From Deltaproteobacteria bacterium (GTDB lineage Bacteria > Desulfobacterota > Binatia > Binatales > Binataceae): a DNA stretch of 33,547 nt. The notes below the pieces were generated by a model. The model saw nothing but the letters and a program-made list of their open reading frames with translations. It did not search any database and was not told the origin of the DNA. The position numbers and the translations under genes are program-made. The stretch lies in assembly GCA_021799495.1 (NCBI GenBank), contig JAJZAI010000039.1, forward strand, positions 1-33,547, in the 5' to 3' direction. Each line of letters starts with the position of its first letter. Position 1 is the stretch's first letter. This document shows, piece after piece, positions 3,471 to 32,010 of the stretch.

Positions 3471-3577
3471 TTGCTCACGCGATTGGCGGGCCGCTTGTCG
3501 AACGATCGCGGCCGGCGGATGGCGCGGACGAAAACGCCCGCGGAGGTTGGCTGGAACGGATGCTTGCGCCGCCCGGA

Positions 3578-4276
3578 TTAGATCGCCGGCGCGGCCTGAT
3601 GCATGAAGTCGATCCAGATTTGGCCGTTGGGGTCGAGATTCACGATACGGCCGGCGACGCTGCGGGTCGGCGCGCCCCAGTTGTAAGTAACGTACACGGT
3701 GGCGCCAGCGGCGATCGCGCCGCCTGTGATCAGGAAGATCACGCCGGCCGGGTAATCGACGACGTAATCCGTCCCCTCGGTGTAAACCGTCCCGCCCGTC
3801 GCGGTGCTTTGCACCCGGACGCTCGATACGTTTTCGTGGCCGAGCGCCGCGGCCTGCGCCGAGGTTGTGGCGGGGAATGTGACTGGCTGCGCCGTGACTG
3901 CGGTGGCGCCGGAGCCGTCGCTCGCGGAAACCGAGTTGTCGTCCACGGCGTACGCCATCTGGCCGACCTGCGCGGCGCCGATCGAGCCGTCGTTTACCGC
4001 GTACATGAAAACGCCGCGCCGGCACACCAGCGAAATCGCGCCGGCGGCTCCAGGATTGTTGACCGCGTTCTCGCCGGGGATGCCGTCGTGCACGCGTTCG
4101 GCGCGACCGACGATTTTGAGTCCCGCCGCGCTTGACGCCGGCACGGCGTTGCCGTTGGAGTTGAGGGCGACGATGCCGCCCAGATAGACGGTGGTGTTGG
4201 CTTCAACCGGATAAACTTGCATCCGGCCGCCGTCGGCGAGTTCGGGCGTATTGCGGGAATTGGTCAGTGCCGCCAT
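3578..4276 (-). CDS. Capsid decoration/cement-like protein (DUF2190-like) with beta module
   Basis: The protein has 232 residues. The first ~140 (VEANTTVYLGGIVALNSNGNA, LKIVGRAERVHDG, GENAVNNPGAAGAISLVCRRGVF) resemble small beta-barrel cement proteins that coat tailed-phage heads. Its place between the protease and the major capsid gene fits that job. Residues 161-203 (GGTVYTEGTDYVVD to VTYNWGAP) are a copy of the module found in gp37 and twice in the sheath. The short C-terminal tail IWIDFMHQAAPAI follows. The function is inferred from position and the N-terminal pattern; a head fibre or other accessory head protein is possible. Confidence 0.7.
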   Translation of the reverse strand: MAALTNSRNTPELADGGRMQVYPVEANTTVYLGGIVALNSNGNAVPASSAAGLKIVGRAERVHDGIPGENAVNNPGAAGAISLVCRRGVFMYAVNDGSIGAAQVGQMAYAVDDNSVSASDGSGATAVTAQPVTFPATTSAQAAALGHENVSSVRVQSTATGGTVYTEGTDYVVDYPAGVIFLITGGAIAAGATVYVTYNWGAPTRSVAGRIVNLDPNGQIWIDFMHQAAPAI

Positions 4277-4339
4277 CGATTCATCCTGTGTTTCGCCGGC
4301 CGCATGCGGCGCGGCCGGCGTGGTTGGAAATGCGGATTC

Positions 4340-4790
4340 TCAGTCGCGCCCGAGGGCGAAGGCTTCGCGCGAAGCGGCGTCCTTGCGCCGGGCGTAGTCT
4401 TGCGGATCGATTCCGAGGCGCGCGCAGATCGCCGCTTCGGTTCGCGTGAGCGGATGCGCGGCCGCGTGCGGCGGGCGCCGCGAAATCGGTCGCGTGGTCG
4501 TAATCGATCGGCAGGCCGGCGTCCATCCGCAGCGCCTGGGACGCCTCGATCACCGCGGCGGCGTCCGTCAGGCGGTACGGACCGCGGCCGTCGCGCCCGG
4601 CGAATTCGCCCGCGGGAATCAATTCGATCCACTCCGGCGTTTCGCCGGCCGGCAGGATGGCGGCGCCGACTGCGGCTCTCCGGAGCGCAGCGGGAATTGG
4701 AGCGGAAATATTTACGCGATCGGCGTCCATGGCGCGCGATTCTGCCATCGCCGCGCGTCCCGCATAAGGGTGAAACATTTCACTATTCAT
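4340..4790 (-). pseudogene. Mu gpI-like prohead protease/scaffold, internal deletion with frameshift
   Basis: The 5' part encodes the start of the Mu protease: IELIPAGEFAGRDGRGPYRL and then GLPIDYDHATDFAAPAARGR, a well-known conserved segment. Immediately after this (about 4,450) the frame should continue into the catalytic core, but it does not. Instead, in the +1 frame, the sequence encodes the normal C-terminal end of the protein: LTRTEAAICARLGIDPQDYA to GREAFALGRD-like residues, with a TGA at 4,340. About 200 central residues seem to be missing, and the two halves are out of frame. The protease/scaffold is normally about 350 residues; what remains is near 150. The original start may be the ATG at 4,748 (MAESRAMDADRVNIS), because a palindrome at 4,770-4,783 lies upstream of it. 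Confidence 0.72.
4770..4783. promoter_or_regulatory. Palindrome GTGAAA-N2-TTTCAC upstream of protease remnant
   Basis: The sequence GTGAAA CA TTTCAC is a perfect 6-bp dyad preceded on the plus strand by TAAGG. The same arrangement, TAAGG then GTGAAA-N2-TTTCAC, occurs once more at 11,110-11,123 upstream of the endolysin. Identity extends through 11 consecutive bases (TAAGGGTGAAA) plus the second arm. Two copies in front of two minus-strand phage genes suggest an operator or activator site, possibly for a Mor/C-type protein. The binding protein is not known. Confidence 0.5.
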
Positions 4791-4800
4791 AGTCGTTCGA

Positions 4801-6222
4801 TTACTCAGTGAGGCGGGTGGTTGGCTGAATATGAGTATCCGGCGCGGCCGATTCGCCGGGTTTAGCCGCGGGCGAGAGCGTGGGTTCGTCCGCTCCGGGC
4901 TGCGGCAGCCCGAGCCGATCGAGTATCGCCGTCTGGCCGACGCGCAACCCGCGATCGACCATCGCCGCGACCGTCGCCGCGAAGGACTGCTCGTCCTGCT
5001 CGGCCGGGAGCGCGAATTCGACGCTCGGGTATCGCCGCCGCGGCCCGGCGTTCAAATCGACGATCGGTTTCACCAGGTCGCGCCGCAGCGTCGCGGCGAG
5101 GCGCCGCGCGTCCGCGCGCAGGATGTCGCGGCGCACGGAATTGTGAACCTCGGCCGCCGCCCGCGAGCCGGTCGTGCGCGGCATGTCGTGCGTCAGGGTC
5201 TGGCCGATGACCGCCTTGCTGACCTGCCGATCGAGGTACTCGCAAAGCCGCTCGTACACCTCGATACTTCCGGTCTGGCGCGATTCCGTGAATTCGATCA
5301 GCATCGACTCCGGAATAATCGCGGCGGCGTCGGTGCCGATATTGGCGACCGCGGCGAGCAGGGTCTGCTTTTCGGCCTCGGTCGCGCCCGCGCCGTACTT
5401 GCCCACTCTGAGCGGCTGGCCGAAGACTTCCGCGAACGTCACCCAATCCTTGAGCACGTAATTCTTGAACAGGTACGCCCAGCCGGCCGCGCGCGCGAGT
5501 CCTCCGCGAATCGGAAGGCCGGACTTGGCCTTGGCGAAGTGGACGACGAATTTGAATGGCAGAATCGGGACGGTCATCGGCTGCCAGTCGTTCCATCCGG
5601 AGTTGGGCGCGCGCGAAAAGCCGGCGTTCATCCGCCGATCCAGATGCGATCGGCCGGAACCGGCGGCATCGACCGGCTGGCCGCCGTCCTCCATCGTGCG
5701 CACCAGCAGCCGTTCGCCGCTGACCCAGTCGAATAAAAACCAGCGCGGATCGCGCCAGCGCAGCTCGCGCGGCCGCCACTCGCGTCCCGAGGTGTCCCAG
5801 ATAATCTCGGTCGCCGAGAAGCCTTTGCCCAGCGCGTCGAGCACGTCGAAAAGCGTTTCGGGCAGATCGAGCGGACCGTCAAGAAGCGCCTCGCGCACCA
5901 GGTCCGCGTCGCGCGCGTCACCGGGATCCGGAGAGGCCGGCCGCACGATCAGCGGCAACTGCGCCAGGGCTTGCTTGCGGGTTTCGAGCACCGCCAGATA
6001 GTGGAGATCCTTTTCCTCCATCTCCTCCGCGAGTTCGAGGTAGAGGAACGGATCGCCGAATTCGGCCTGGTTCAAAATTCCCGCGAGCTTTTCCGGCGTC
6101 AGCGCGACCGACGGATGCATCACGGAGTAGATGTTGCGGACGCCGGTCATCGTGGCGCCCGCCTGTTCCTCGCGCAGCCGGCTCGCGTCGACCGGGCGCC
6201 CGTACGCATCGTATAGCGTCAT
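4801..6222 (-). CDS. Phage portal protein (Mu gp29-like, DUF935)
   Basis: The protein has 473 residues. It forms the dodecameric ring at one head vertex through which DNA is packaged. Typical segments are: LAGILNQAEFGDPFLYLELAEEMEEKD, HYLAVLETRKQALAQLP, FSATEIIWDTSGREWRP, LPIRGGLARAAGWAYLFKNY, WVTFAEVFGQPLRVGKYGAG, VSKAVIGQTLTHD and AAAEVHNSVRRDILRADAR. The ATG at 6,222 was chosen because a GAGGCGAAG ribosome site precedes it and family similarity starts there (MTLYDAYGRPV); 13 codons upstream are also open. It lies between terminase and protease. In Mu a gpF-like head-morphogenesis gene would follow, but here only 10 nt separate the portal stop from the protease ORF. Confidence 0.94.
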   Translation of the reverse strand: MTLYDAYGRPVDASRLREEQAGATMTGVRNIYSVMHPSVALTPEKLAGILNQAEFGDPFLYLELAEEMEEKDLHYLAVLETRKQALAQLPLIVRPASPDPGDARDADLVREALLDGPLDLPETLFDVLDALGKGFSATEIIWDTSGREWRPRELRWRDPRWFLFDWVSGERLLVRTMEDGGQPVDAAGSGRSHLDRRMNAGFSRAPNSGWNDWQPMTVPILPFKFVVHFAKAKSGLPIRGGLARAAGWAYLFKNYVLKDWVTFAEVFGQPLRVGKYGAGATEAEKQTLLAAVANIGTDAAAIIPESMLIEFTESRQTGSIEVYERLCEYLDRQVSKAVIGQTLTHDMPRTTGSRAAAEVHNSVRRDILRADARRLAATLRRDLVKPIVDLNAGPRRRYPSVEFALPAEQDEQSFAATVAAMVDRGLRVGQTAILDRLGLPQPGADEPTLSPAAKPGESAAPDTHIQPTTRLTE

Positions 6223-6285
6223 TATATACTTCGCCTCAGTTGATAATCCGCCGAATAGCAAGTGTGCGGGCGGCGCGCGGCGCGA

Positions 6286-11175: not shown

Positions 11176-11310
11176 GTTTGTTAGCATCCGGCGGCCGGTA
11201 ATTTGGCCCGTTTTCGCGCGGCGCCGCCGCGACATGACAAAAAAAGGCGCCACGGACGAAGGTCGGAATTCCTCCGCGCGCGGCGCCCGGTCGCAAGGCG
11301 GACTAATCCG

Positions 11311-11854
11311 TCAGCGGCCGCGGTCGATCGCGCGCGCCTCGGCCAGCACCTGGAAGACGCGCCGCCGCGTGCATCCCAGCGCCAGCGCAATCGAATCGAC
11401 GCTGGCGCCGCGCGCGCATTTGCAGAATCCGCACGCGCCGCGGCGGCGGATTCGGCACGTCGATGCGATCGCCGCCGAAGACGCCCGCGAGCGCCAGCGC
11501 GGCCGCGTGGCCGACCGCCCCGCTGAGCGCGTCGCCGGGTTCGGGCGAATGCGGGATATAGAGCCGCGCGCCGCCAAAGGCTTCGATCAGCCGGCTGGCG
11601 CCGTCCGCGCCGATGGTTCGCACCAGTTCGTCGAGCATCGCGCCGCGCCGGGGGGCGCGTTGCGCCGCGGGCGCGATGCGATCGCGATCCGGCGCGAACG
11701 CCGCGGCCGTTTCGGCGCCGGTCGGGCGGGCGAATCCGGGGGAGGGCGCAGGCTGGCGCGGCCGGCGCATGAAGATGCGGCCGGGTTCGCGCAGCGGCGC
11801 GCCGGGCGGCGGCCAGTCGAACGTGAGCGGCGTTGAACCTATCCGTTTTTCCAT
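11311..11854 (-). pseudogene. Mor-type transcription activator, split by a 1-nt frameshift
   Basis: From the ATG at 11,854 the frame encodes a proline/arginine-rich lead, then LVRTIGADGASRLIEAFGGA and ARLYIPHSPEPGD, which matches the dimerisation part of Mor/C activators (the GG..LYIP motif). At about 11,411 the helix-turn-helix, GASVDSIALALGCTRRRVFQ, appears in another frame and ends at 11,311. A single missing base in the GCGCGCGG run (plus-strand 11,407-11,417) would join the two. In Mu, Mor activates the middle promoter that makes C. The start overlaps the DnaA-domain gene stop (TGATG). A sequencing or assembly error in the GC run is possible. Confidence 0.65.
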
Positions 11855-12228
11855 CAGACAGCCTCTTTTCCTTCGGATTTGGCGCCGGAGGGCGCCGCGA
11901 GTTGGCCGATCAGCCGGTCGAGCAGGCGGGCGAAGCCGGCGTCCGCGCAACGCCGGCGGGCGACCGCCGCACAGGCGTGGATTACGCTGCTGTGGTCGCG
12001 GCAAAAAGCGCGTGCGATGCGCGGAAAGGACGCGGACGCGCCGCCCGGACGCCGGCGCGGCGGACCGGCCAGTTCCCGGCTCAGATACATCGCGACATGC
12101 CGCGCGCAGGCGACGTGCTGGCGGCGGGTGGGCGCGCTCAGTTCGGCGGAATCCACTTTGAATTCGCGCGCCACCAGAGCTTGAACCTCGCCGATCGAAA
12201 TCGGCCGCGGACGTGGTTCGTCAATCAT
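11854..12228 (-). CDS. DnaA domain IV-like phage protein
   Basis: The protein has 124 residues. The central part matches the DNA-binding domain IV of DnaA: VQALVAREFKVDSAELSAPT, then RRQHVACARHVAMYLSREL and FPRIARAFCRDHSSVIHACA. The RDHS-VIHA segment is the signature that reads the DnaA box (usually RDHTTVIHA). There is no AAA+ domain, so it cannot load helicase itself. It may occupy DnaA boxes to regulate replication or transcription. The start at 12,228 was chosen for its GGAG site and family similarity; the upstream part of the frame is low-complexity. It overlaps Mor by 1 nt. Confidence 0.78.
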   Translation of the reverse strand: MIDEPRPRPISIGEVQALVAREFKVDSAELSAPTRRQHVACARHVAMYLSRELAGPPRRRPGGASASFPRIARAFCRDHSSVIHACAAVARRRCADAGFARLLDRLIGQLAAPSGAKSEGKEAV

Positions 12229-12890
12229 CGGAGACACTCCCTGAAAGCGGCGCCGGACGGCGTTATCGCGGCGCGGGCGGCGCCGCGCGCGGCGGCTGGC
12301 GATTGCCGGGCTTACGATGCGTTCGCTAGACGAGATCGAAATCGATGTAGCGAACGGCCCTGGCACGCGTGCTGAAAGCATCGGTCCACGGCGCGATCGC
12401 GCGCCAGAGCCTCGGCGCGATATCGGCGGCGCCAATTTGGCTGGTCGGAGGCTTCAAAAAATTGGCGCTGCGATGGCGCTCCCTGCTGGTTTTGGCCGCA
12501 AAGATCCGCCGCCGCCACACACCTCCGCCTCCGCATCCGGACGAAAATCTGCGGCGTAGGTTGAATATGACCAACCGAGGCGAACGCGCCAACGCGTCAT
12601 CGCCGCGGTCGTAAAACACCTGCGGATTCCGGCACACGCATTGCGTTGCGTGCCGATCATGCGCCGGTCAGGCTGGATTCGAGCTTCCGGCAGAGCCGGA
12701 GGATTCGGCGCATAGCCGCACGACGCACTGGAACCGGCGAGTGGAGAACTCGCTGATGACTCGTGATTAACAATCGCGAGGTTATTGAACGGATGGAGAA
12801 TCGAGTCGCCCAAACTAACCATTCGTGGTATGGTCGTACAAAACATTGAACGTTTTCGCCCGCTTACAGGCGTATTCGTCGGTGTCTATA
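12229..12890. other. Gene-poor stretch between DnaA-domain gene and repressor
   Basis: In Mu-like phages this side of the repressor carries ner and the transposase genes A and B. Here no frame encodes a DDE transposase or AAA+ MuB-like protein. Minus-strand open frames at 12,326-12,637 and 12,454-12,846 lack ribosome sites and look low-complexity, so I do not call them genes. The part from about 12,600 on is less GC-rich than its surroundings. A small hairpin (GCGAGT-N5-ACTCGC) lies at 12,737-12,753. Confidence 0.5.
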
Positions 12891-12903
12891 TCCCACAGTG
12901 GGA
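12891..12903. promoter_or_regulatory. Candidate repressor operator TCCCAC-A-GTGGGA
   Basis: This perfect 13-bp dyad lies 5 nt upstream of the repressor ATG at 12,909 and overlaps a TATATC (-10-like) hexamer at 12,887-12,892. A second dyad, CTACT-GT-AGTAG, follows just inside the gene. The position fits autoregulation. A weak AAAAC/GTTTT dyad lies at 12,840-12,856. Confidence 0.45.
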
Positions 12904-12908
12904 GAATA

Positions 12909-13562
12909 ATGTCAACTACTGTAGTAGATGAAGAATTTCGTCGCAGATTGCGCCTGATCATGCAACAGTTCGGTTCCGTCGCCGATCTCGCGCGCGCCGT
13001 CGGCGTTTCCGACAATGCGATTTACAAGTGGGTCTCGGGACGCGGCCAGCCCAGCATGATGAGCCTGGTGAATCTTGCGAAGGCGGCGGGCGTTTCGGTC
13101 GAATGGCTGGCGACCGGCCGCGGCGCCTCCGGCCGCATCCGCGGCGAGATCGCAGGTAGCTCTGAGAGCTCCGAACCGGCCGGCGCCGTGGGGCGCGCCG
13201 TCACGACTCCGCCGCCGAGTCCGCAAATCGTCGAATACGTGCGCTTGCGCGGCGATTGGTTGCAACGCGCGCTCGGCGCCGATGCGCGCGCGATCGCGAT
13301 GGTCGAGGCGGTTGGCGATTCGATGGCGCCGACGATCGACGAAGGCGACGTGGCGCTCACCGACCTGCGTGAAAACCGCTTCCGTTACGACGGCGTGTAC
13401 GTGATTCGTTCCGACAACGAGCTCGCGATCAAACGTATCCAGCGCCAGCCCGACGGTTCCCTGCTGGTGCGCGGCGACAATCCGGCCTACGAACCCGCGA
13501 CCGTGCGGCCCGACCAGCTTAAGCTGCTGGGCCGCGTGGTATGGGTGTTCGGACGGCTCTGA
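12909..13562 (+). CDS. LexA/CI-type prophage repressor (HTH + S24 peptidase)
   Basis: The 217-residue protein has an N-terminal XRE-type helix-turn-helix (FGSVADLARAVGVSDNAIYK, W..GRGQPS) and a C-terminal S24 peptidase-like domain. The catalytic pair is Ser138 in VGDSMAPTI and Lys175 in LAIKRIQ. A linker with an Ala-Gly pair (PAGAVGR, residues 90-96) could be the autocleavage site. It would keep the prophage silent and be inactivated after RecA-type DNA damage signalling. The ATG at 12,909 has a GGGAG site. It is the only plus-strand phage gene and stands at the right edge of the element. It looks intact although much of the phage is not. Confidence 0.9.
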   Translation: MSTTVVDEEFRRRLRLIMQQFGSVADLARAVGVSDNAIYKWVSGRGQPSMMSLVNLAKAAGVSVEWLATGRGASGRIRGEIAGSSESSEPAGAVGRAVTTPPPSPQIVEYVRLRGDWLQRALGADARAIAMVEAVGDSMAPTIDEGDVALTDLRENRFRYDGVYVIRSDNELAIKRIQRQPDGSLLVRGDNPAYEPATVRPDQLKLLGRVVWVFGRL

Positions 13563-22784: not shown

Positions 22785-22937
22785 AGCGCTCGGGCGGGGC
22801 GGCGCCAATGCTTGATGCCATTGACGCGCCGCGCCGCTACTCTATTGCCGTGATTGCGGGTTTGGCGCAGTGCAAGGGCGCCGAATGCGGCGCGCCGGCG
22901 CGAGTGCGCGCGGATTTGGCGGAAGGGGTTTCCATCG

Positions 22938-24554
22938 ATGGCTGACGCGGCGATATCTGCCGTCGGGAACGCGAGCCGCGCGGTCGGGCCGGCGGACGGC
23001 GAGCTTGCGCTTTCCGCCGGAGCCGCCCGGGCAAGCGCACGCTACAGTCTGTTTCGATATTCGCCGCTACTATTTTTTCTCATCATTATAGTTGCGGACG
23101 CGAGCCAGTGGGCCGACCCGGATCTGTGGATCCACTTGCGGGCAGGTCAATCGATTCTCGCCAACTGGCGCGTGCCCGCTATCGACGCCTACTCATACTC
23201 CGTGCCGGGCGCAATCTGGACCGATCATGAGTGGTTATGCCAAGCGCTGATGGCGCTCGCGTACGATCATCTTGGCGTTCTCGGGCTCCAAATATGGAAG
23301 CTGCTTTTGGTGGCCGCGACGCTTGGCTTCACGTCGATGAGTCTTGCGGAGACCGGCGCGGCGCCCGCTTTGCAATTCAGAATCATGACGGTCGTCGCGA
23401 TCGCGTTGATGGAGCAATTGCAATACCGGCCGCAGCTTTTTACATACGCGCTCTTTGCTGGACTTCTGGTTCTCCTGGCGCGCGACTGGCACGGCCGGCG
23501 AGCGCCATTATTGCTGGTAATTCCGTTCATGGCGGTTTGGGCGAATCTTCATGGCGGATTCATCATGGGGATCGCCGCGATAGGAATCTACGCCGGATGC
23601 GTGATGATTTGCGCGCTATTCGGCCACGTGGCGAGGATGCGGCGCGCATTCGAGCTGGGCGCTCTGACGCTTGCGGCCTCGGCCGCCACGCTTTTGAATC
23701 CCTACGGAATCGGCCTGTGGCGTTTGATTTGGCGCGCCGCGACGGATCCTGTAAGCCGTATCGCGAATGACGATTGGCTGCCGCTTTCCCGCGCGGTGGA
23801 GGCGCAATGGAGCAATTCCCATAGCGGCGCAATCTTTGTGCTGTGCGGCGCGGGCCTGATGGCGGCGACGGCGCTTGCGGTCGCTCTCGCGCCGCGGGCG
23901 GGCGATTTCCCGTTCGTCGCGATCGCCGCGATCATGTGCGCCGCCGCCATATCGTCATCGCGCAATCTGCCCTTTGCGATTATCGCGTGCGCGGCGCCAC
24001 TGACTCTACGCCTGGCAAAAAAGGGCCGCCAATGCGAACCGGACGTGCAGACGCGATCCGCGGTAAATCCGTGGATTGCCGGCGTGATCGCGATCGTGGC
24101 CGTCTGGCGGCTTGGACTCATATCCGGCCGGCTTAAGCCGGCCATCGCGAATCCCGCCGGCGCGGTCCGGTTCATGCGGCTGAATTCGCTGCATGGCGAT
24201 ATACTAAATGATTTCAATTGGGGCGATTACCTGATTTGGCGCCTGGAGCCGCAATCGAAGGTTTTTATCGACGGCCGGTATGATACTCTCTATCCGTATT
24301 CGGTGATTCGCCAGTATATCGATTTCCGTTTCGATTTGCCTGGCGCACAAAAGACGCTCGACGGCTGGCCCCATGACTTTGTTCTGGTTTCTCCCGGAAC
24401 GCCCGCATACAAAATGATGGTCAAACAGTCTGGATGGACACTGATCTATCTCGATAGCGTGTCGGCGCTCTTCGCCCGCAATGGGACCGCGGGCGCGCTC
24501 GTCACTCCGCATCTCAAGCCCGCGGAAAAGCCGGCCGCCAGGTATTTTCCGTGA
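22938..24554 (+). CDS. Multi-pass membrane protein, paralogue A of a tandem pair
   Basis: The 538-residue protein has about ten hydrophobic segments after a 40-residue soluble start. Conserved motifs shared with the next gene are: DLWIHLRAGQ, DAYSYSVPGAIWTDHEWLCQ, YRPQLFTYALFA, WANLHGGFIMG, LHGDILNDFNWGDYLIWRLE, PQSKVFIDGRYDTLYP and PAYKMMVKQSGWTLIYLDSV. The charged D/H/E residues in the first loop and the soluble C-terminus suggest a membrane enzyme acting on lipid-linked sugars, but I cannot name the family. The start at 22,938 has GGAAGGGG upstream. It is coupled to the next gene by a GTGA overlap. Confidence 0.82.
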   Translation: MADAAISAVGNASRAVGPADGELALSAGAARASARYSLFRYSPLLFFLIIIVADASQWADPDLWIHLRAGQSILANWRVPAIDAYSYSVPGAIWTDHEWLCQALMALAYDHLGVLGLQIWKLLLVAATLGFTSMSLAETGAAPALQFRIMTVVAIALMEQLQYRPQLFTYALFAGLLVLLARDWHGRRAPLLLVIPFMAVWANLHGGFIMGIAAIGIYAGCVMICALFGHVARMRRAFELGALTLAASAATLLNPYGIGLWRLIWRAATDPVSRIANDDWLPLSRAVEAQWSNSHSGAIFVLCGAGLMAATALAVALAPRAGDFPFVAIAAIMCAAAISSSRNLPFAIIACAAPLTLRLAKKGRQCEPDVQTRSAVNPWIAGVIAIVAVWRLGLISGRLKPAIANPAGAVRFMRLNSLHGDILNDFNWGDYLIWRLEPQSKVFIDGRYDTLYPYSVIRQYIDFRFDLPGAQKTLDGWPHDFVLVSPGTPAYKMMVKQSGWTLIYLDSVSALFARNGTAGALVTPHLKPAEKPAARYFP

Positions 24555-26170
24555 TCCTGGGCCGCGCGATCGAAAAGTTGCCGGATGAACCGGCCGGCGA
24601 TGCGAGCTGGCCGCAACCCGTCTCATTGTGGCGTTACTCGGCAGCGCTCGTCTTCGTTGCGGCGGTGATTGCCAACGCCTGCAGTTATGCCGACATTGAT
24701 TTGTGGGGACATGTCTATTTTGGCGCGGCGATGATACGGGCCGGGCGGATCATCACGAATGATCCATACAATTATTCGGTTCCGAATCATCTCTGGCTCC
24801 ATCATGAGTGGCTGACTGAAGTCATGATGGCGGCGATCTATCAGCATTGCGGAATCATCGGCCTCAAGCTCTGGCATTTCAGCGTAACGGCGTTTGCGAT
24901 TGCGATGTTGTCGATGGCGGAAGGCGAGACGGGCGCGCCGCCGCCGATCCAGTTCGGCGTGCTCGCGGCCGCGGCCCTCACATTATCCGCCGTGATGCAA
25001 TTCAGGCCGCAGATTTTCACATACGCGCTGTTTGCGATGTTGATTTTTCTGCTGACGCGGGATCTTTACGGCCGCCGATCGCATCTTTGGCTCGTTATCC
25101 CGATGCTCGCGTTGTGGTCAAACCTGCACGGCGGGTTTTTCATCGGGTTGGTGACGCTCGGAATTTATACGGCCGCGATCGGCGTTGACGATTTGCTTAC
25201 GGGGCGCGGCTTGAAGCGGGCGTGGCGGCTGGCGGCGCTGACGCTTGCGGCGACGGCCGCGACCTTCGTCAATCCGATCGGAATCGAATGCTGGCGCACG
25301 GTGTTTGTATCGCTGACTGATCCGCTGGCGCACAAGGTGATGGCGGACTGGCGGCCAATCGTTACCGTCATCCGCGATTCCGGCGTTCATGGTTCCGATA
25401 ATTTACTACTTGAGGTGTGGGCCGCGTATATGGGAGCCGGAGCCATTTCGATCGCTGTTACTCCGCGTCGCGATGATTGGCCGCTAATCGCGATTGCCGC
25501 GGTGATGGCGGCGGCGGCGTTTAGCGCGATCCGCAATATTCCGCTGCCGATAATCGCGGGAGCGCCGCTGCTTGCCCGGCATCTCGATTTGACTTTCCGC
25601 AAGCTAGCGGCCCGGAAGGGCGATTTGGCCAATTCCGCAGCGCAAGAAACGAGCGGCGTCTTCCAGCGGATGTCGATCGCCGGCCAGAGTCTGATATTCA
25701 TCGCGTCATTCGCGGTGCTGTTCGGAAGAGAGGGGCTGTGGTCGGCGAAATTGGCGGCGGTTGGTGAATATCCGTCAGGCGCGGTAAGCTTCATGAAGGA
25801 GCACAACCTGCATGGCAATATCCTGAATCCATCACAATGGGGGCAATATTTGATTTGGCACCTTGCTCCCGAATCCAAAATTTTTTACGACAGCCGGTTC
25901 GACACCGTATATCCCCAAAAAGTTTTGATTCAATATCTGGATTTTTTCTTCGAACCGCCATCAGGCGCCCGGCTACTGAATGAATATCCACATAATTTCG
26001 TACTTGTGATTACGAACTCGCCCACTTACAAAATGATGCTCGAGCAGCGGGCATGGAAACCGCTCTACCGGGATTCCGTTTGCGCCTTGTTCGCTCCCGC
26101 CGCTTCGCGGGCGGCCGAGATGCCGGGCCTGCCCGTGATTGGCAAAGCGCGGAAGACTTTTTTCCCCTGA
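24551..26170 (+). CDS. Multi-pass membrane protein, paralogue B of a tandem pair
   Basis: The 539-residue protein starts with GTG overlapping the stop of the previous gene and shares its length and its motifs in the same order: DLWGHVYFGA, NDPYNYSVPNHLWLHHEWLT, FRPQIFTYALFAM, WSNLHGGFFIG, LHGNILNPSQWGQYLIWHLA, PESKIFYDSRFDTVYP and PTYKMMLEQRAWKPLYRDSV. The pair came from gene duplication and diverged considerably. Translational coupling suggests they act together, maybe as a heterodimer. The function is not known; glycan or lipid-linked sugar transfer is a guess from membrane topology and the GT39-like gene upstream. Confidence 0.82.
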   Translation: MILGRAIEKLPDEPAGDASWPQPVSLWRYSAALVFVAAVIANACSYADIDLWGHVYFGAAMIRAGRIITNDPYNYSVPNHLWLHHEWLTEVMMAAIYQHCGIIGLKLWHFSVTAFAIAMLSMAEGETGAPPPIQFGVLAAAALTLSAVMQFRPQIFTYALFAMLIFLLTRDLYGRRSHLWLVIPMLALWSNLHGGFFIGLVTLGIYTAAIGVDDLLTGRGLKRAWRLAALTLAATAATFVNPIGIECWRTVFVSLTDPLAHKVMADWRPIVTVIRDSGVHGSDNLLLEVWAAYMGAGAISIAVTPRRDDWPLIAIAAVMAAAAFSAIRNIPLPIIAGAPLLARHLDLTFRKLAARKGDLANSAAQETSGVFQRMSIAGQSLIFIASFAVLFGREGLWSAKLAAVGEYPSGAVSFMKEHNLHGNILNPSQWGQYLIWHLAPESKIFYDSRFDTVYPQKVLIQYLDFFFEPPSGARLLNEYPHNFVLVITNSPTYKMMLEQRAWKPLYRDSVCALFAPAASRAAEMPGLPVIGKARKTFFP

Positions 26171-26308: not shown

Positions 26309-26401
26309 GGAGAGGTGGCTGAGCCTGGTTTATGGCGCACGCCTGGAGAGCGTGTAGACCCCGAAAGGGTCTCGGGGGTTCAAATCCCCCCCTCTCCGCC
26401 A
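26309..26401 (+). tRNA. tRNA-Ser (anticodon GGA)
   Basis: The cloverleaf is complete. The acceptor stem is GGAGAGG/CCTCTCC with discriminator G and an encoded CCA. The anticodon stem is CACGC/GCGTG with loop CTGGAGA, anticodon GGA at 26,345-26,347, reading UCC and UCU. The long variable arm (GACCC-CGAAA-GGGTC) is typical of serine tRNAs, and the T arm is GGGGG-TTCAAAT-CCCCC. A CATACT hexamer about 10 nt upstream may be the -10 box. No second copy of its 3' end occurs in the window. Confidence 0.97.
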
Positions 26402-26655: not shown

Positions 26656-27555
26656 CTATGAACGTTCTTTTCGCGCCCTTCGGTTCTTTGATTGCGCGCC
26701 GTCCGCGACAGCGTCAACCGCCGGCGTCCTGGCCAGCAAGCCGTCCGCGATCCATCCTGCAAATATGCAGTTTATCGCTTCGACCGGATTCTCATCGCCC
26801 AGTCTTTCGGCCAGTATCTCGCACAGCCTGTCAAACGTCGCGCCGTTTGACATGACCTTCAGCGCCTCATTCTCGGCCGCCTCCAATTCCCGGAAATAGA
26901 CTTGCCCGGCGCGGCGCCAGATGATGACCGTGGCCGGTTCGCGCGCCGGATCGCTCCACTGCCCGGAATTTTCGATGGCGCGGCGGACGCCCGCGATCCG
27001 CCATTCGCATTCCAGTATTACTGACGCTGGAACCATGCGGAGCAAGAGCGCCGGCCAGCTCTCGGGCGCGATATTGCGCAGCTCGGCCGCGTTGAGAGCT
27101 GCGCAATCCGGGGCGACAAAGATTTCCGAGATCGCCCACTCCAGGCCGGCCAGATCGGCCAGGAATGGCGGCTGAAAAATTCGCGATTGGCCGGCGAGGA
27201 ACCGGGCAAAGCGCCGGCCGGCCCAATCTATCGACGGCTCCGTGGGCGGATGTTCGACGAGGTATTCGCGAACCAGCTTGCCAAACTCGATTTCGCCCGC
27301 GACCGCCATGGTCGCCGGGAAATCTTCCTTGAGGCATTCGAGCAGCCGCTGAAAATAAGCCGCGGAGTATATTTCGATACGTTCGAGGGCGCCGGGACCG
27401 GCTTCGCTCCTGATGACGTTTTCGACTTCGGAGCAAGCGCTATAGTTCTTGCCGCGCCGCGCCCTGGTAGTGCGGGAAGGCGCGGTGACGCGCTTATAGA
27501 GAAACGTCTGGAGTTCTTTGAGATGCACGATCGCGTGTGGAGTCTTTCGCGCCAT
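26656..27555 (-). CDS. DUF2063 family protein, MNIO partner (BufC-like)
   Basis: The protein has 299 residues from the ATG at 27,555 (MARKTPHAIVHLKELQTFLY). The N-terminal DUF2063 domain is clear: LQTFLYKR, then ERIEIYSAAYFQRLLECLKE, DFPATMAVAGEIEFGKLVRE and YLVEHPPTEPSIDWAGRRFA, then FLADLAGLEWAISEIFVAPD. In RiPP clusters such proteins bind the precursor and present it to the DUF692 enzyme. It overlaps the MNIO gene by 62 nt, so the pair is tightly coupled. The C-terminus ends in a basic tail (SKNRRARKERS). An upstream ATG at 27,657 is possible but adds only low-complexity sequence. Confidence 0.88.
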   Translation of the reverse strand: MARKTPHAIVHLKELQTFLYKRVTAPSRTTRARRGKNYSACSEVENVIRSEAGPGALERIEIYSAAYFQRLLECLKEDFPATMAVAGEIEFGKLVREYLVEHPPTEPSIDWAGRRFARFLAGQSRIFQPPFLADLAGLEWAISEIFVAPDCAALNAAELRNIAPESWPALLLRMVPASVILECEWRIAGVRRAIENSGQWSDPAREPATVIIWRRAGQVYFRELEAAENEALKVMSNGATFDRLCEILAERLGDENPVEAINCIFAGWIADGLLARTPAVDAVADGAQSKNRRARKERS

Positions 27556-28411
27556 CCGCCGCCTGAGCGCGCCGCCGCGCCTCCTCGGCAGTGGCCGCGA
27601 GAGTGGCGAATCCGGGTATGTTGTCGTCCCATTCGACCAGCGTCGAAACCGGTCCAAAGCGGCGCAGCGCGTAATCGTAAAGCGACCAGACTTCTTCCCG
27701 CACCGGATGATCGTGAGTGTCGAGCAGAAAGGCGCCGTGTTCGCTGTGGCCCGCCATGTGGAACTGCACGACCCGTTCGATCGGAATCATGTCGATGTAC
27801 GTCACCGGATCGAAGCGGTGGTTGAAGGCGTTGACGAAGATATTGTTGATGTCCAGCAATATTCCGCAGTCCGCCTCTTGCGCCACCGCCGCCAGAAACT
27901 CCCATTCGCTGAGCGTCGAGTCGGTGAATTCCATATAGCTCGACACATTTTCGATCAGAATCGGCCGTTCGAGTATCTCCTGGACCGTGCGAATACGCTT
28001 GGCCACATGCCGTAGCGCCTCTTCGGTATAGGGCAAGGGCATCAGGTCGTGCAGATTGCGCCCGCCCACGCCAGTCCAGCATAGATGATCCGATATCCAT
28101 GCCGGTTCGAAGCGGCGGGCGAGTGACGCGAGCCTGCTCAGATAGCCGCGATTCAGCGGATCGGTCGAGCCGATGGAAAGACTGACCCCGTGCAGGACGA
28201 TCGGATAGTGCTCACGGACTTTTTCGAGAACCTGAAGCGGGCGGCCGCCGGCCACCATGAAGTTCTCCGAGATCACTTCGAACCAGTCCATCCGGGGATG
28301 ATGGTCAAGAATGTGATTGTAGTGAGGACGGCGCAGGCCTGCGCCGAAGCCCAGAAAGGGAAAAGCGTTACGCTTGCGGAATTCCACCATCATTTCGATT
28401 GCGCCGCCCAT
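27494..28411 (-). CDS. DUF692 multinuclear non-heme iron oxidase (MNIO, BufB-like)
   Basis: The 305-residue TIM-barrel-type protein has the family signature throughout: LGFGAGLRRPHY, FEVISENFMV (Glu49), IVLHGVSLSIG (His74), WISDHLCWTG (Asp108, His109), ILIENVSSYM (Glu154), ILLDINNIFVNA (Asp187), VQFHMAGHSEH (His218), LLDTHDHPVRE (Asp231, His233) and LVEWDDNIP (Glu260). These acidic and histidine residues are the expected ligands of the iron cluster that oxidises cysteines in precursor peptides to oxazolone/thioamide or thiooxazole products. The annotated start is ATG at 28,411; ATGs at 28,393 and 28,390 are alternatives. It follows a Cys-repeat precursor and overlaps a DUF2063 gene, the standard core. 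Confidence 0.95.
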   Translation of the reverse strand: MGGAIEMMVEFRKRNAFPFLGFGAGLRRPHYNHILDHHPRMDWFEVISENFMVAGGRPLQVLEKVREHYPIVLHGVSLSIGSTDPLNRGYLSRLASLARRFEPAWISDHLCWTGVGGRNLHDLMPLPYTEEALRHVAKRIRTVQEILERPILIENVSSYMEFTDSTLSEWEFLAAVAQEADCGILLDINNIFVNAFNHRFDPVTYIDMIPIERVVQFHMAGHSEHGAFLLDTHDHPVREEVWSLYDYALRRFGPVSTLVEWDDNIPGFATLAATAEEARRRAQAADGAKDSTRDRASQRTPDVSL

Positions 28412-28420
28412 GGCGCCGCG

Positions 28421-28445
28421 CCGCTTCGCCTCGGAGCCGAAGCGG
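28421..28445 (-). promoter_or_regulatory. Second hairpin before MNIO start, alternative to 28,442-28,472
   Basis: The arms CCGCTTCG and CGAAGCGG (8 bp) enclose a 9-nt loop, ending about 10 nt before the MNIO ATG. The last four bases are also the first four of the next hairpin, so both cannot form completely at once. It could mask the ribosome site. Confidence 0.35.
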
Positions 28446-28472
28446 GGATGCCGGCTGAACCGGCATCCCCGC
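28442..28472 (-). promoter_or_regulatory. 13-bp perfect hairpin between precursor and MNIO gene
   Basis: GCGGGGATGCCGG-CTGAA-CCGGCATCCCCGC is a perfect 13-bp stem with a 5-nt loop, 18 nt past the precursor stop. No T-run follows on the minus strand. A mRNA stabiliser or partial terminator here would give much more precursor than enzyme, as is common in RiPP operons. Confidence 0.6.
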
Positions 28473-28490
28473 CTGTCAGCGGCGGCGCCT

Positions 28491-28709
28491 TTACATGCTC
28501 ATACCCTTGCATGAGCTGTGGCCCTTGCACGAACTATGGCCTTTACACGAGCTATGGCCTTTACACGAGCTGATGCCCTTGCACGAGTTGGCGCCAAAGG
28601 CATTGAGCCGCGCCGCCTGTTCGCTTGAGGCAGTCGGACTCGGCGTCGCCATGAACAACGCGGCAGCCGCGTTGGCCAGAGTCGTTCCAGAAACTGCATT
28701 CCTTTCCAT
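28491..28709 (-). CDS. Bufferin-type RiPP metallophore precursor with five SCKG repeats
   Basis: The 72-residue peptide begins MERNAVSGTTLANAAAALFM, a leader that resembles the signal-peptide-like start of BufA2-type precursors (SGT-LA-AAAALF). After a spacer (residues 21-40) the core is five copies of an S-C-K-G unit with cysteines at 43, 49, 55, 61 and 67, spaced exactly 6 residues apart, and the end is GMSM. The CKG motif next to a DUF692 gene is the mark of MNIO-modified peptides, which bind copper or other metals. The start at 28,709 is decided by a consensus AGGAGG site 5 nt upstream. Known relatives, from memory, have fewer, unevenly spaced CKG motifs; an unbroken hexapeptide array is unusual. 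Confidence 0.85.
   Translation of the reverse strand: MERNAVSGTTLANAAAALFMATPSPTASSEQAARLNAFGANSCKGISSCKGHSSCKGHSSCKGHSSCKGMSM
28495..28584 (-). repeat. Five tandem 18-bp units encoding the SCKG array
   Basis: Five units start at 28,495, 28,513, 28,531, 28,549 and 28,567. The second to fourth are closest (GAGCTATGGCCTTTACAC type on the plus strand). Each encodes one hexapeptide S-S-C-K-G-[HIM] on the minus strand. Changes are mostly synonymous or affect the sixth residue. Unequal recombination or slippage could change copy number. Confidence 0.9.
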
Positions 28710-28714
28710 GCTAA

Positions 28715-28720
28715 CCTCCT
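28715..28720 (-). promoter_or_regulatory. Consensus ribosome binding site of the precursor gene
   Basis: AGGAGG on the minus strand lies 5 nt before the ATG at 28,709. It is the strongest site of the cluster, and fixes the precursor start over the longer open frame from 28,796. Confidence 0.8.
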
Positions 28721-28833
28721 GTGGGTGCGGTGTCGGACCCGTGGGCGACCGGAGTTGGTCACCTCCACTGTCTTCCAAATCCGCTTCGCGTTTCAAGGAT
28801 GAATGGGCGGAAACTCGAACGGCGGCGAATCTC

Positions 28834-29274
28834 CTATCGGGCCGCTTTCAGCGGATCGGCGAATTCGGTCGCAAATCCGCGCGCCTTGAGCGCCTCGACG
28901 CAGCAGGCGATATCTTCATCGATAGTTCCGCCGCTGACGCCGACTGCGCCAAGGAATTCGCCATCTTCCACGATCGGAAAGCCGCCTGCGACCATGCAGA
29001 TGCGATCGTCGGTGTGCTGGAGCCCATAGGCCATCGCATCGGGCATCATTATCGCTCGCACCATCGCGGTCGGACGTTTGAAGGCGATCGCTGTCCAGGC
29101 TTTCTTGATCGCAATATCGACGTTGGCGATCCTGCCGCCTTCGGGCCGCTCCAGTCCTCGCAGATGGCCGCCGAAATCGACGATCGCCGTCGTACTCGAC
29201 TTGCCGCATCGATGAGCCTCGCGCCCGGACGCCTCAAGCATCTTGCGCACTTCATCAAGTTTCAGTTCACGCAT
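28834..29274 (-). CDS. GlcG/HbpS-like protein (DUF336)
   Basis: The protein has 146 residues: AIVDFGGHLRGLERPEGGRI, VDIAIKKAWTAIAFKRPTAM, ICMVAGGFPIVEDGEFLGAV and GVSGGTIDEDIACCVEALKA are the four conserved blocks of the GlcG/HbpS family. Some members bind haem; others lie in glycolate or diol-oxidation operons without a proven role. GAGGAAGG precedes the ATG. It is the last of three genes with a GlcF-like and a GlcD-like protein, 124 nt upstream of the RiPP precursor. Confidence 0.9.
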   Translation of the reverse strand: MRELKLDEVRKMLEASGREAHRCGKSSTTAIVDFGGHLRGLERPEGGRIANVDIAIKKAWTAIAFKRPTAMVRAIMMPDAMAYGLQHTDDRICMVAGGFPIVEDGEFLGAVGVSGGTIDEDIACCVEALKARGFATEFADPLKAAR

Positions 29275-29293
29275 CGGAGACCTTCCTCATGGT

Positions 29294-30691
29294 TTACAGG
29301 CCAAGAATCTGCGGGCTCATGATCCCGTTGGGATCGAGCGTCTTTTTCAACCTGGCCAAAGTGGTGTGATAGCGCCCGAATTGATCCATCATCGGCGCCC
29401 AAACCCGGCCGGACTTGTAGGGCACGCATTCGTTCGCCAGCAGGTCGCGGCAGCAGCGCTCGGACGCCATCCGGATCTGCTCCCACTGCTCGCGCTCTTC
29501 GTAAAAAACGATGACGGCGCCATGCACGCCGCGGCGGCATAGCACCAACCCGCCTGCCCAGATGAATTCGGGATGAGCCTCTCGATTGTTCTGGATCGCG
29601 CGGAAAAAGCGCGGGACGGTCTCGTTCGCCATCGAGCACATCAGCAACGCGCACATCGAGCGGCCGAAATATCCCGCGTAAGAATACCAGAAGGTGTTGT
29701 CGCGTCGCAGTTTGGCGAAAAAGATCTCGTCGAAGAGCGCGAACTCGGCGCCGCCGAACCTGCCCGCTTCGGCGACGATACGGGCGCGGTCGCGCGCCAC
29801 CTCTTCGCTTGTACCGCGGGCGTCCAGGGCCAGACAGAAGCGCGGCAGAGCGGCCCGCTCGAACTGCGGCCGGGCGCCCATCACGCGCGCCTCGATCGCC
29901 TTGTCCTCGTAGCCGGCGCCGTACCAGAGATTGTGCGTCAGTTCCTTGAGTTGAAGCGCGGAGATGAAACGCGCGCCCGATTCATAGTCGGGAAAACCCA
30001 GAGCGAAGGTCTCCTGATATTCGGGCCGGGGATGGACCCATAAAGCGATTTTGGTGATCACCCCAAGGGAGCCGCTGGCGCCCAGGAACATTCCCGTCAG
30101 GTCGGGACCGACGGCATAACGGGCGAAAAAACCCGCATCGGCCAGCACCGCGCTGCCCGTGCGCAAAAGTTCTCCGCTGGGCAGGACGACTTCCAACCCT
30201 GCGACCTCGTCGCCCGTGCTTTGATAACGCGGCGAGCCGGTGCCCAGGCCGTGAGAGGCGATTGCGCCGCCCACGGTGCCGGCGGCTCCTGTGAGCGGGA
30301 CCACGCCCAGGGTTAATCCGCGCCGCCCCAATTCAGCCAGCAACGCGCCGTAGGTAACGCCGGGTTCGACCAGCGCCAGTCCGCGATCTTCGTCGATTTT
30401 CAGGATGCGGTTCAGCGCCGAGGTATCCAGCACGATCGCGCCGTCGCAGGGATTGGCGCCGCCGGCATAAGTCGATCCCGCCGCGCGCACATAGAGCGGA
30501 ACCTTGCGCCGATTGGCCGTGGCGACCGCCGCGGCCACATCCTCGACGCTGCGCGCGATCACCGCCGCTGCCGGATTGCCGCCGGGCGCAATCGAGGTGT
30601 CGCGCCGGTACCCGAGCAGGTCGATCTTGTCTTCGAGGACGAGCGCGCCGCCCTGACCGGCGAGTTCCGTTCCGATTTGACTGAGCTTCAT
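29294..30691 (-). CDS. FAD-linked oxidase (GlcD-like, PCMH/VAO family)
   Basis: The protein has 465 residues. The N-terminal FAD-binding domain is clear: ARSVEDVAAAVATANRRKVP, LYVRAAGSTYAGGANP, VEPGVTYGALLAELGRRGLT, GTVGGAIASHGLGTGSPRYQ and LTGMFLGASGSLGVITKIAL. The C-terminal substrate-binding half ends LKKTLDPNGIMSPQILGL, as in D-lactate/glycolate-type oxidases. It probably oxidises a 2-hydroxy acid or similar and passes electrons to the Fe-S protein encoded upstream, whose stop overlaps its start (TAATG). The substrate is not known. Confidence 0.9.
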   Translation of the reverse strand: MKLSQIGTELAGQGGALVLEDKIDLLGYRRDTSIAPGGNPAAAVIARSVEDVAAAVATANRRKVPLYVRAAGSTYAGGANPCDGAIVLDTSALNRILKIDEDRGLALVEPGVTYGALLAELGRRGLTLGVVPLTGAAGTVGGAIASHGLGTGSPRYQSTGDEVAGLEVVLPSGELLRTGSAVLADAGFFARYAVGPDLTGMFLGASGSLGVITKIALWVHPRPEYQETFALGFPDYESGARFISALQLKELTHNLWYGAGYEDKAIEARVMGARPQFERAALPRFCLALDARGTSEEVARDRARIVAEAGRFGGAEFALFDEIFFAKLRRDNTFWYSYAGYFGRSMCALLMCSMANETVPRFFRAIQNNREAHPEFIWAGGLVLCRRGVHGAVIVFYEEREQWEQIRMASERCCRDLLANECVPYKSGRVWAPMMDQFGRYHTTLARLKKTLDPNGIMSPQILGL

Positions 30692-31908
30692 TACACGACC
30701 CGCCTCAAGCGAAAATAGCTGTCGATGAATTCAAAGACGCCCATCACCGCGGGGAAGCCCGCCGCTTGCGAACGCCGCAAGTGGGCGACGCAAAGCGGGC
30801 TGGCGCCAAGCACGACGACAGCGCCGGCCTCGGCAAACGATCTCAGCTTGCCATCAGCCATGCGCGCCGCGGATTGCGGGCTCATCCGCGGCATTCCGCC
30901 CGCGGCGCCGCAACACACAGCGTAGCTTCCCTGATCCGCGACGGCGACCGTTTGGCATCCCAGGCGATCGAGCAGCGCACGGATTCGCAGCGGGTGGTTC
31001 GCAGCCCCGGCAATGCCGTGACTCTTCTTGCTCAGATGGCAGGAATCGAGAAGTCCAATCGGTCCGGCCGCAGCGTTCACCCTGGGCTCGAAGCCGATCC
31101 GGCCTTCCGCGACCGCCCGCTCGATCAGATCGAAAGCGTGAAGCACTTCGACCCCGTCGGCGAGCTGCGTTCCAGCGAGGCTCCCGAGGCATTCGGCGCC
31201 TGACGCCACGACGCGGCGGCATCCGCTGCGCGCGATCGCCGCAGCCAATTCCCGCCGTTCAGCGTCGGCTTCGGCTGGGAATCCGATCTCTTCCAATGGG
31301 GCGCCGCAGCAGCGCGCCTGCTCGGGCGGCAACAGCTTCAGCGGCACGCCGGCTTGATGCAATACCGACACGGTTGCGCGCGCTTCAGCCGGCGCCTCGT
31401 AACTTGCGGCGCATCCGGGAAGATAGAGCGCGCCGGCGCCGGCGGCGATACCGTCGAGTCCCGCGGCCCAGTGGTTGCGCGTCTCGATCGACGCGCCGGC
31501 GGGGTTGTGGCGCTCGACGACATTCTCGGCGATCGCCGCAATCGGCGCCGGCGCGAAGCCTTGCGCGACCATCGCTGCGCGAATCTGTTTAACCAGATGC
31601 GCCGGCCGCAAGCCTACCGGACAGACTTCCTCGCAATTGCCGCAGGTGGTGCAGTTGAAAAAGCGTTCGATCAGTGAATTTATCGGCAGTTCTTCGCCTT
31701 CGAGCACGGCGCGCGCCGTAGTCAAATAACCCTTGCCCGAATACCCCGGAGCGGGGTTGTGATGAAGCAGCGTGGGGCACACGTGCTGAATCCCGCGCTC
31801 TTCCCAGTGCATTTCAACGCAATAATTGCAGCGCAGGCAGTGATAGAGGTTCTCCACGAATGGCTCAGCCGCCTGAGCCAGCGACGTCCTTAATTCATCT
31901 TGCGCCAT
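30691..31908 (-). CDS. GlcF-like Fe-S/CCG-domain oxidoreductase subunit
   Basis: The protein has 405 residues. The N-terminal ferredoxin part has an unusual first cluster, C24-x2-C27-x2-C30 with the fourth Cys only at 44 (CLRCNYCVEMHWEERGIQHV then CP), and a regular second one, CTTCGNCEEVCPVG (C86, C89, C92, C96). Two CCG domains follow, with QARCCGAPLEE and YAVCCGAAGGMPRM, the cysteine-rich signature of GlcF, HdrB/D and LutA-like electron carriers. It probably takes electrons from the FAD oxidase to quinone. Overlap with the oxidase start indicates coupling. Confidence 0.9.
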   Translation of the reverse strand: MAQDELRTSLAQAAEPFVENLYHCLRCNYCVEMHWEERGIQHVCPTLLHHNPAPGYSGKGYLTTARAVLEGEELPINSLIERFFNCTTCGNCEEVCPVGLRPAHLVKQIRAAMVAQGFAPAPIAAIAENVVERHNPAGASIETRNHWAAGLDGIAAGAGALYLPGCAASYEAPAEARATVSVLHQAGVPLKLLPPEQARCCGAPLEEIGFPAEADAERRELAAAIARSGCRRVVASGAECLGSLAGTQLADGVEVLHAFDLIERAVAEGRIGFEPRVNAAAGPIGLLDSCHLSKKSHGIAGAANHPLRIRALLDRLGCQTVAVADQGSYAVCCGAAGGMPRMSPQSAARMADGKLRSFAEAGAVVVLGASPLCVAHLRRSQAAGFPAVMGVFEFIDSYFRLRRVV

Positions 31909-32010
31909 TTTACACTCAACCGACCCGCATGGTTCGCAAAATCATGCGAATGCGATTGTTTCTAAGAAGTAGCCAAAAAAAAGTCCATTCATTGTTTCTG
32001 GCTTGCCTGA

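Follow-up and report, generated by a model that had tools for sequence, protein, structure and literature searches.

Results

A Buf2-type cluster with an array precursor

The cluster described here is a slightly unusual variant of Buf2 whose evolutionary history is clear; it does not represent a new kind of system. Our best explanation, to which we assign a probability of about 0.75, is that it is a derived Buf2-type bufferin cluster whose array precursor arose from a canonical BufA2, that the cysteines of its CKG units are modified and buffer copper, and that its enzyme pair serves both the array precursor and a canonical one. The new part is the history: the ancestral bufBC genes were lost, an intact bufA2 was left behind, and no enzyme pair other than that of the array cluster was detected in either array species. 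The window, i.e. the whole stretch of 33,547 nucleotides that was analysed, belongs to the genome G000. G011 is a sister species from the same genus, and G012 to G016 are five further members of this genus. The cluster comprises the following features.

28491..28709, minus strand: bufA-type precursor, 72 aa, with a BufA2-homologous N-terminal part and five SCKG hexads
28497..28586, minus strand: CKG array SCKGIS-SCKGHS-SCKGHS-SCKGHS-SCKGMS, with an 18-nt DNA period
28715..28720, minus strand: AGGAGG ribosome-binding site of bufA, 5 nt before the ATG; AGGAGG is also found in the sister species
28442..28472, minus strand: strong hairpin between bufA and bufB, with a perfect stem of 13 bp by script and 15 pairs upon folding
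27494..28411, minus strand: bufB, MNIO (DUF692) maturase, 305 aa, with the Cys-Lys class motif EWDDNIP
26656..27555, minus strand: bufC, DUF2063 partner (PME type 1) of 299 aa, counted from the chosen ATG
26660..28813, minus strand: cassette collinear with the array locus of the sister species

The preliminary description had reported a 72-residue reading frame with a strong AGGAGG site and cysteines at positions 43, 49, 55, 61 and 67, each within an SCKG motif, followed by a DUF692 MNIO gene and an overlapping DUF2063 gene. Translation of 28491-28709 (minus strand) confirmed the first part, and matches to PF05114 (378.6 bits) and PF09836 (61.5 bits, cut-off 27.2) confirmed the second. The start of bufC is an ATG that we chose, and the gene overlaps bufB by 62 nt. 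The assignment to the bufferin type also holds, as BufB exceeds the cut-off of its model, the structural model of the DUF2063 partner matches solved MNIO partners, and the precursor is homologous to BufA2.

The Pfam scan, which covered 12 ORFs of the window, gave no copper gene, DoxX or metal regulator above cut-off. Elsewhere in the window, a tRNA-Ser (GGA) is located at 26309-26401, approximately 250 nt downstream of the bufC stop, while the 20 kb around the array locus of the sister species contain a tRNA-Ala only. A pair of large neighbouring ORFs (566 and 539 aa) at 22854-26170 resemble each other, look membrane-like by eye and have no Pfam family above cut-off. Mu-like prophage genes, including portal (PF06074) and major head subunit gpT (PF10124) genes, are present at 2514-6261.

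The array precursor

The match of the precursor to the BufA2 model NF050166 supports homology (44.5 bits, E 1.3e-11) but misses the curated cut-off of 60. The array precursor of the sister species also falls below the cut-off (39.9 bits), whereas a canonical orphan BufA2 encoded elsewhere in the genome of the window exceeds it (75.1 bits). In the alignment, the array form keeps the N-terminal part of BufA2 and the GANSCKG junction, with LNAFGANSCKG of the array precursor aligning with VKCLGANSCKG of the canonical BufA2 of G029b. An alanine replaces the first cysteine, and the tail and the last cysteine are absent. Buf2 precursors are described with 6 or 12 cysteines (PMC12452194, covered here in part), compared with five in the window precursor and four in that of the sister species, whose array consists of four units (spacing 6-6-6, against 6-6-6-6 in the window). 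In Buf1, a disulphide links the first and last cysteines, and modification affects the central ones (PMC12452194). If the cysteines of Buf2 have the same roles, the array form would have lost just the scaffold.

The array is not a chance pattern, since a pattern of four CKG codon triplets spaced by 18 nt matched the window twice and none of 100 dinucleotide shuffles. TRF reports 4.7 copies of an 18-bp unit. Among the five units, the S-C-K-G-S codons vary by synonymous changes only, and bufA shows a dN/dS of 0.22 relative to the sister species (66 codons), which together indicate a coding array under constraint.

The hairpin between bufA and bufB has a z-score of -5.6 in the window and -4.3 in G011, and it contains one compensatory G-C to T-A pair between the two species. 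Its 15-nt core is a single-copy sequence in both genomes and is absent from five further members of the genus. Perfect stems of 9 bp or longer are present in the bufA-bufB gap of 17 of 26 array loci versus 5 of 25 non-array loci; this association is a lead only, as related loci are not independent. The hairpin could possibly keep the precursor transcript in excess over the enzyme transcript.

Relatives within the order

We searched 41 genomes of the order, representing one family and 17 genera. A precursor match at E <= 0.01 was obtained in 32 of these genomes, at 43 places overall, and an MNIO match in 33. A script filtering for CKG retained 33 of the 43 places, with cysteine spacings of 6-6-7-6-14 (n=26), 6-6-7-6-13 (n=1) and 6-6-13-14 (n=4) in addition to the two arrays. 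The ten places that failed the filter comprise two with 6-6-7-6-14, six with 6-6-13-14 and two chance matches that are not BufA2 (L039 and L045). The canonical layout is thus exhibited by 39 of the 41 real BufA2-like precursors, the arrays being those of the window and G011 only; judged by spacing, 10 of the 39 carry five cysteines. The preliminary description had contrasted the precursor with BufA precursors, in which the cysteines are unevenly spaced and a segment follows the last of them; this contrast is correct within its own order.

N-terminal region and export

The signal peptide was judged solely by a hydropathy script (N-region charge, hydrophobic stretch and AxA site), with 31 other precursors for comparison. 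The net charge of the N-region is 0 in the window array and -1 in the sister array, and positive in 28 of the 31 others; the three exceptions are L004 and L017, with charge 0, and L030, for which a wrong start was used. The hydrophobic stretch scores 1.57 in the window and 2.18 in the sister species, compared with 1.71-2.97 in the others (without L030). Both arrays fail the AxA test, but so do 14 of the 31 others, so this test does not discriminate. The canonical orphan BufA2 retains all six cysteines and a positive N-region. The signal peptide of the window precursor may therefore be weak by these measures, and export of the array peptide appears uncertain.

The enzymes BufB and BufC

BufB scores 385.5 bits against the NCBIfam BufB model (NF050167, cut-off 310), and the invariant H/D/E/N positions hold across the 13 BufB compared. 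Where 3bww exhibits ERDFNFP, BufB exhibits EWDDNIP, i.e. an aspartate instead of a phenylalanine after the aspartate of the EWD motif; DD is present at this site in 51 of 57 distinct BufB examined. An aspartate replacing the phenylalanine next to the catalytic base is described as a mark of Cys-Lys class MNIOs, and multiple Cys-Lys motifs are spoken of in the same source (PMC13097082, likewise covered in part). Both traits of Cys-Lys captophorins, multiple Cys-Lys motifs and an aspartate at the site of FonB Phe250, are found here (five CKG and EWDD), provided that the motif site corresponds to the Phe250 position, as we read it.

BufC scores 64.8 bits against the HvfC model, under the cut-off of 142, and its sequence gave no match in the PDB up to E 0.1. 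We used an AlphaFold model (mean pLDDT 80.6, pTM 0.74, built with 16 sequences) and Foldseek instead of the sequence search. The model matches 8hi7_A (TglHI), 3dee (NGO1945, TMt 0.75) and 8hci_A with E < 0.001, and weakly 7dz9_C from the MbnABC complex (E 0.14). Judging from the entry titles and from the structure comparison of BufB, the partner proteins are probably chains A in the TglHI entries and chain C in 7dz9. Relative to the sister species, dN/dS is 0.17 for bufB and 0.63 for bufC, which is fast-evolving.

Loss of the ancestral enzymes

In G012 to G016, a canonical bufA2-bufB-bufC cluster lies beside a divergent ECF sigma gene, with bufC of G014 cut by the contig end; a 364-residue ORF comes next in the four genomes with a long enough contig. 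G000 (contig C87) and G011 (contig C9) exhibit the same syntenic neighbours and an intact canonical bufA2, with no bufB match at this locus in either genome. Each has a single MNIO match, at the array locus (assemblies 98% and 94% complete). A deletion scar is visible behind the orphan gene, with G013 as the only blastn reference. In G000, 182 of the 297 nt after bufA2 align to the end of G013 bufC and the following DNA (76%, E 7e-34), covering the last 40-odd nt of bufC, while the first 78 nt of the gap have no such match. In G011, the alignment to the DNA behind G013 bufC spans 83 nt (78%, E 6e-16), and the orphan gaps of the two species are 79% alike. As the scar aligns and the end of bufC is still readable in both (DGLLVARDRLP, against DGLLIELDR in G013 BufC), bufB was lost together with almost the whole of bufC. 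Judging from these alignments, this loss in all likelihood happened once, before the two array species split. The orphan bufA2 itself is under purifying selection (dN/dS 0.20).

The divergent ECF sigma gene accompanies the canonical bufA2 in all seven genomes of the genus (L155, L148-L153). In L155, it is located at 12329-12943 (minus strand), with a 285-aa ORF at 11283-12140 (minus strand); this ORF, which has no Pfam family, is next to the sigma gene in the six genomes whose contig reaches there. A conserved AAAGGTTCCCG element lies near the sigma start. In the covered part of PMC12452194, sigma genes are reported with Buf1 but not with Buf2 clusters. A promoter motif common to the array bufA and the canonical sigma-bufA2 region was rejected, as no 7-mer occurs in both arrays and at least three of the seven regions.

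Mobility and origin of the array cluster

Positions 26660-28813 of the window match contig C16 of G011 (88.9%), and positions 28816-31915 match a different contig, C48 (87.0%). This split indicates that the cluster moves independently of its glycolate-oxidase-like neighbours and carries its own upstream region of approximately 100 bp. These neighbours, which we take to be glcEFG from their Pfam domains, were considered as a part of the system and rejected because they lie on another contig in the sister species. In G011, an ORF of the phage integrase family and a transposase ORF are located within 1 kb of the cluster.

In the BufB tree, the array BufB groups with that of G029b (98/81), apart from those of the five other genus members, and the BufB of the genus were held together in 0% of 200 bootstrap trees in each of two trees. 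A separate origin of the array BufB was nevertheless not upheld, as the AU test on BufB alone did not reject a single genus clade (p 0.169); the test on BufB and BufC together was marginal (p 0.0425, 22 rows, with G014 and G029b not among them). From the trees and the split match, horizontal gain of the array cluster is likely, and an old duplication is a possible source.

CKG arrays elsewhere

A collection of genome contigs was scanned for four CKG at an 18-nt period. This gave 73 stretches, 65 of which have a CKG frame and eight none. The flanking DNA examined contains an MNIO for 27 of the 65, on the same strand and at most 1.2 kb downstream in 26; in the 27th (L107, Bdellovibrionales), the MNIO is on the opposite strand. 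The 26 loci comprise nine from Legionella, 11 from Opitutia or other Verrucomicrobia, and six singles (a Vicinamibacteria MAG, a gammaproteobacterial MAG, BWSM_10, a deltaproteobacterial MAG, an alphaproteobacterial MAG and Bu91). Bu91 (L137) is the sister species, with the same precursor as G011. The uniqueness implied by the preliminary description is therefore contradicted by 25 further loci at which an exact six-residue CKG array lies just upstream of an MNIO. The longest runs contain 10 CK units (L. tucsonensis) and nine (Opitutia among others). Such arrays are not described in the covered part of PMC12452194, and we make no claim that they are unreported. The window array most likely arose separately from those elsewhere, as the window BufB falls among BufB with canonical precursors. 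A tblastn search for relatives on plasmids gave none, although the BLAST low-complexity filter may hide them.

The other 38 of the 65 stretches have no MNIO in the flanking DNA examined. L102 and L123 look like Buf2-type precursors, 16 are three-residue repeats, and the rest look like unrelated repeats. The 16 (L080, L082, L087, L088, L095, L098, L103, L105, L109, L112, L114, L122, L125, L129, L146 and L147) are small proteins from Legionella or Legionellaceae in which CKG-type units recur every three residues (CKGCKGCKGC); by eye, the N-terminus of most of them is signal-like.

Discussion

In the mechanism that we propose, BufC would dock or present the N-terminal part of the precursor, and BufB would oxidise the cysteines of successive Cys-Lys-Gly units, most likely to thiooxazole. 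The product would be a short and flexible chain that carries as many as five identical ligands for soft metals. The modified row would bind and buffer copper or another soft metal. The preliminary description had likewise put forward a row of five cysteines with the same modification and a chelation of copper, both of which are inferred. The literature covered holds no modification data on any array-type Buf2; related systems lose approximately 4 Da per modified cysteine (PMC13097082), and for Caulobacter Buf2 a mass loss and a 305-nm band equal to those of Buf1 are reported (PMC12452194). The array would have been derived from a six-cysteine BufA2 by loss of the first and last cysteines and of the tail, and by duplication of 18-nt units. 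One enzyme pair would probably serve both the array precursor and the canonical orphan in trans. We count against this explanation the sub-threshold BufA2 score, the possibly weak signal peptide, the dN/dS of bufC, the outcome of the AU test on BufB, and the Pfam scan of 12 window ORFs, with no copper gene, DoxX or metal regulator above cut-off.

The array peptide could be secondary, a drifting remnant beside an enzyme pair kept for the canonical orphan. The orphan keeps six cysteines, a positive N-region and a low dN/dS, and the array precursor has an uncharged N-region and a variable number of units. In contrast, the purifying selection on the array gene, the purely synonymous differences in its S-C-K-G-S codons, and the conservation of the ribosome-binding site and of the hairpin with its compensatory change make drift doubtful. 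Even less probable is an unmodified, metallothionein-like thiol peptide beside an MNIO that acts on the canonical precursor only. Evenly spaced cysteines could bind soft metals unmodified, and unmodified precursors are deemed possible where several share one MNIO pair (PMC12452194), but the array gene is directly upstream of the MNIO in both species, and the same arrangement recurs at the 25 further loci.

A cytoplasmic chelator would be a variant of the best explanation and compatible with it; here, the N-terminal segment would be kept for recognition by BufBC without export and the metal would be buffered inside the cell. It would fit the N-region charges of the arrays and preliminary results according to which the signal peptide of Buf1 is a part of BufBC recognition (PMC12452194). 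As it depends on a hydropathy script, the sister species scores like the other precursors in its hydrophobic stretch, and the AxA test has no discriminating power, we hold this variant to be rather unlikely, if somewhat less so than a drifting remnant. A fuller scenario, in which the BufBC of a mobile cassette replaced the ancestral bufBC and now matures both the exported six-cysteine orphan and a scaffold-free cytoplasmic CKG row whose signal peptide has decayed, is a speculation that we would not expect to hold as a whole.

The cluster is a natural case from which the minimal requirements of a Buf2 precursor could be read: modification of a plain CKG row would mean that neither the outer cysteines nor the C-terminal tail is needed. 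For the question, raised in PMC12452194, of several precursors sharing one MNIO pair, the cluster also offers a case with a visible history, since the deletion scar shows that the orphan precursor was formerly accompanied by enzymes of its own. The four- and five-unit arrays of the two sister species form a ready series relating ligand number to metal stoichiometry.

With Buf2/BufA2 (Buf_6/12Cys; NF050166, NF050167), the array cluster shares the bufABC order, a BufB above cut-off, a DUF2063 partner, the N-terminal part of the precursor and the CKG units. In contrast, the array form exhibits four or five cysteines instead of 6 or 12, an exact six-residue period and an uncharged N-region; it is devoid of the first and last cysteines and of the C-terminal tail, and scores below the model cut-off. 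The CKG-hexad arrays of Legionella, Opitutia and others have the same exact period, an MNIO and often a DUF2063 protein downstream, and frequently a bufA-bufB hairpin; they are often longer (up to 9-10 CK units), with KN or KD linkers, and their BufB are located elsewhere in the tree. The Lys-Cys captophorins oxazolin, fontiphorin and Microbulbifer MmrA also contain a repeated cysteine motif modified by an MNIO with a DUF2063 partner, and thiooxazoles are reported for them, tentatively for MmrA (PMC13097082, PMC12538549, both covered in part). They differ in their five-residue EGKCG motif, in which the lysine precedes the cysteine, and in their MNIOs, which have a phenylalanine where this BufB has an aspartate.
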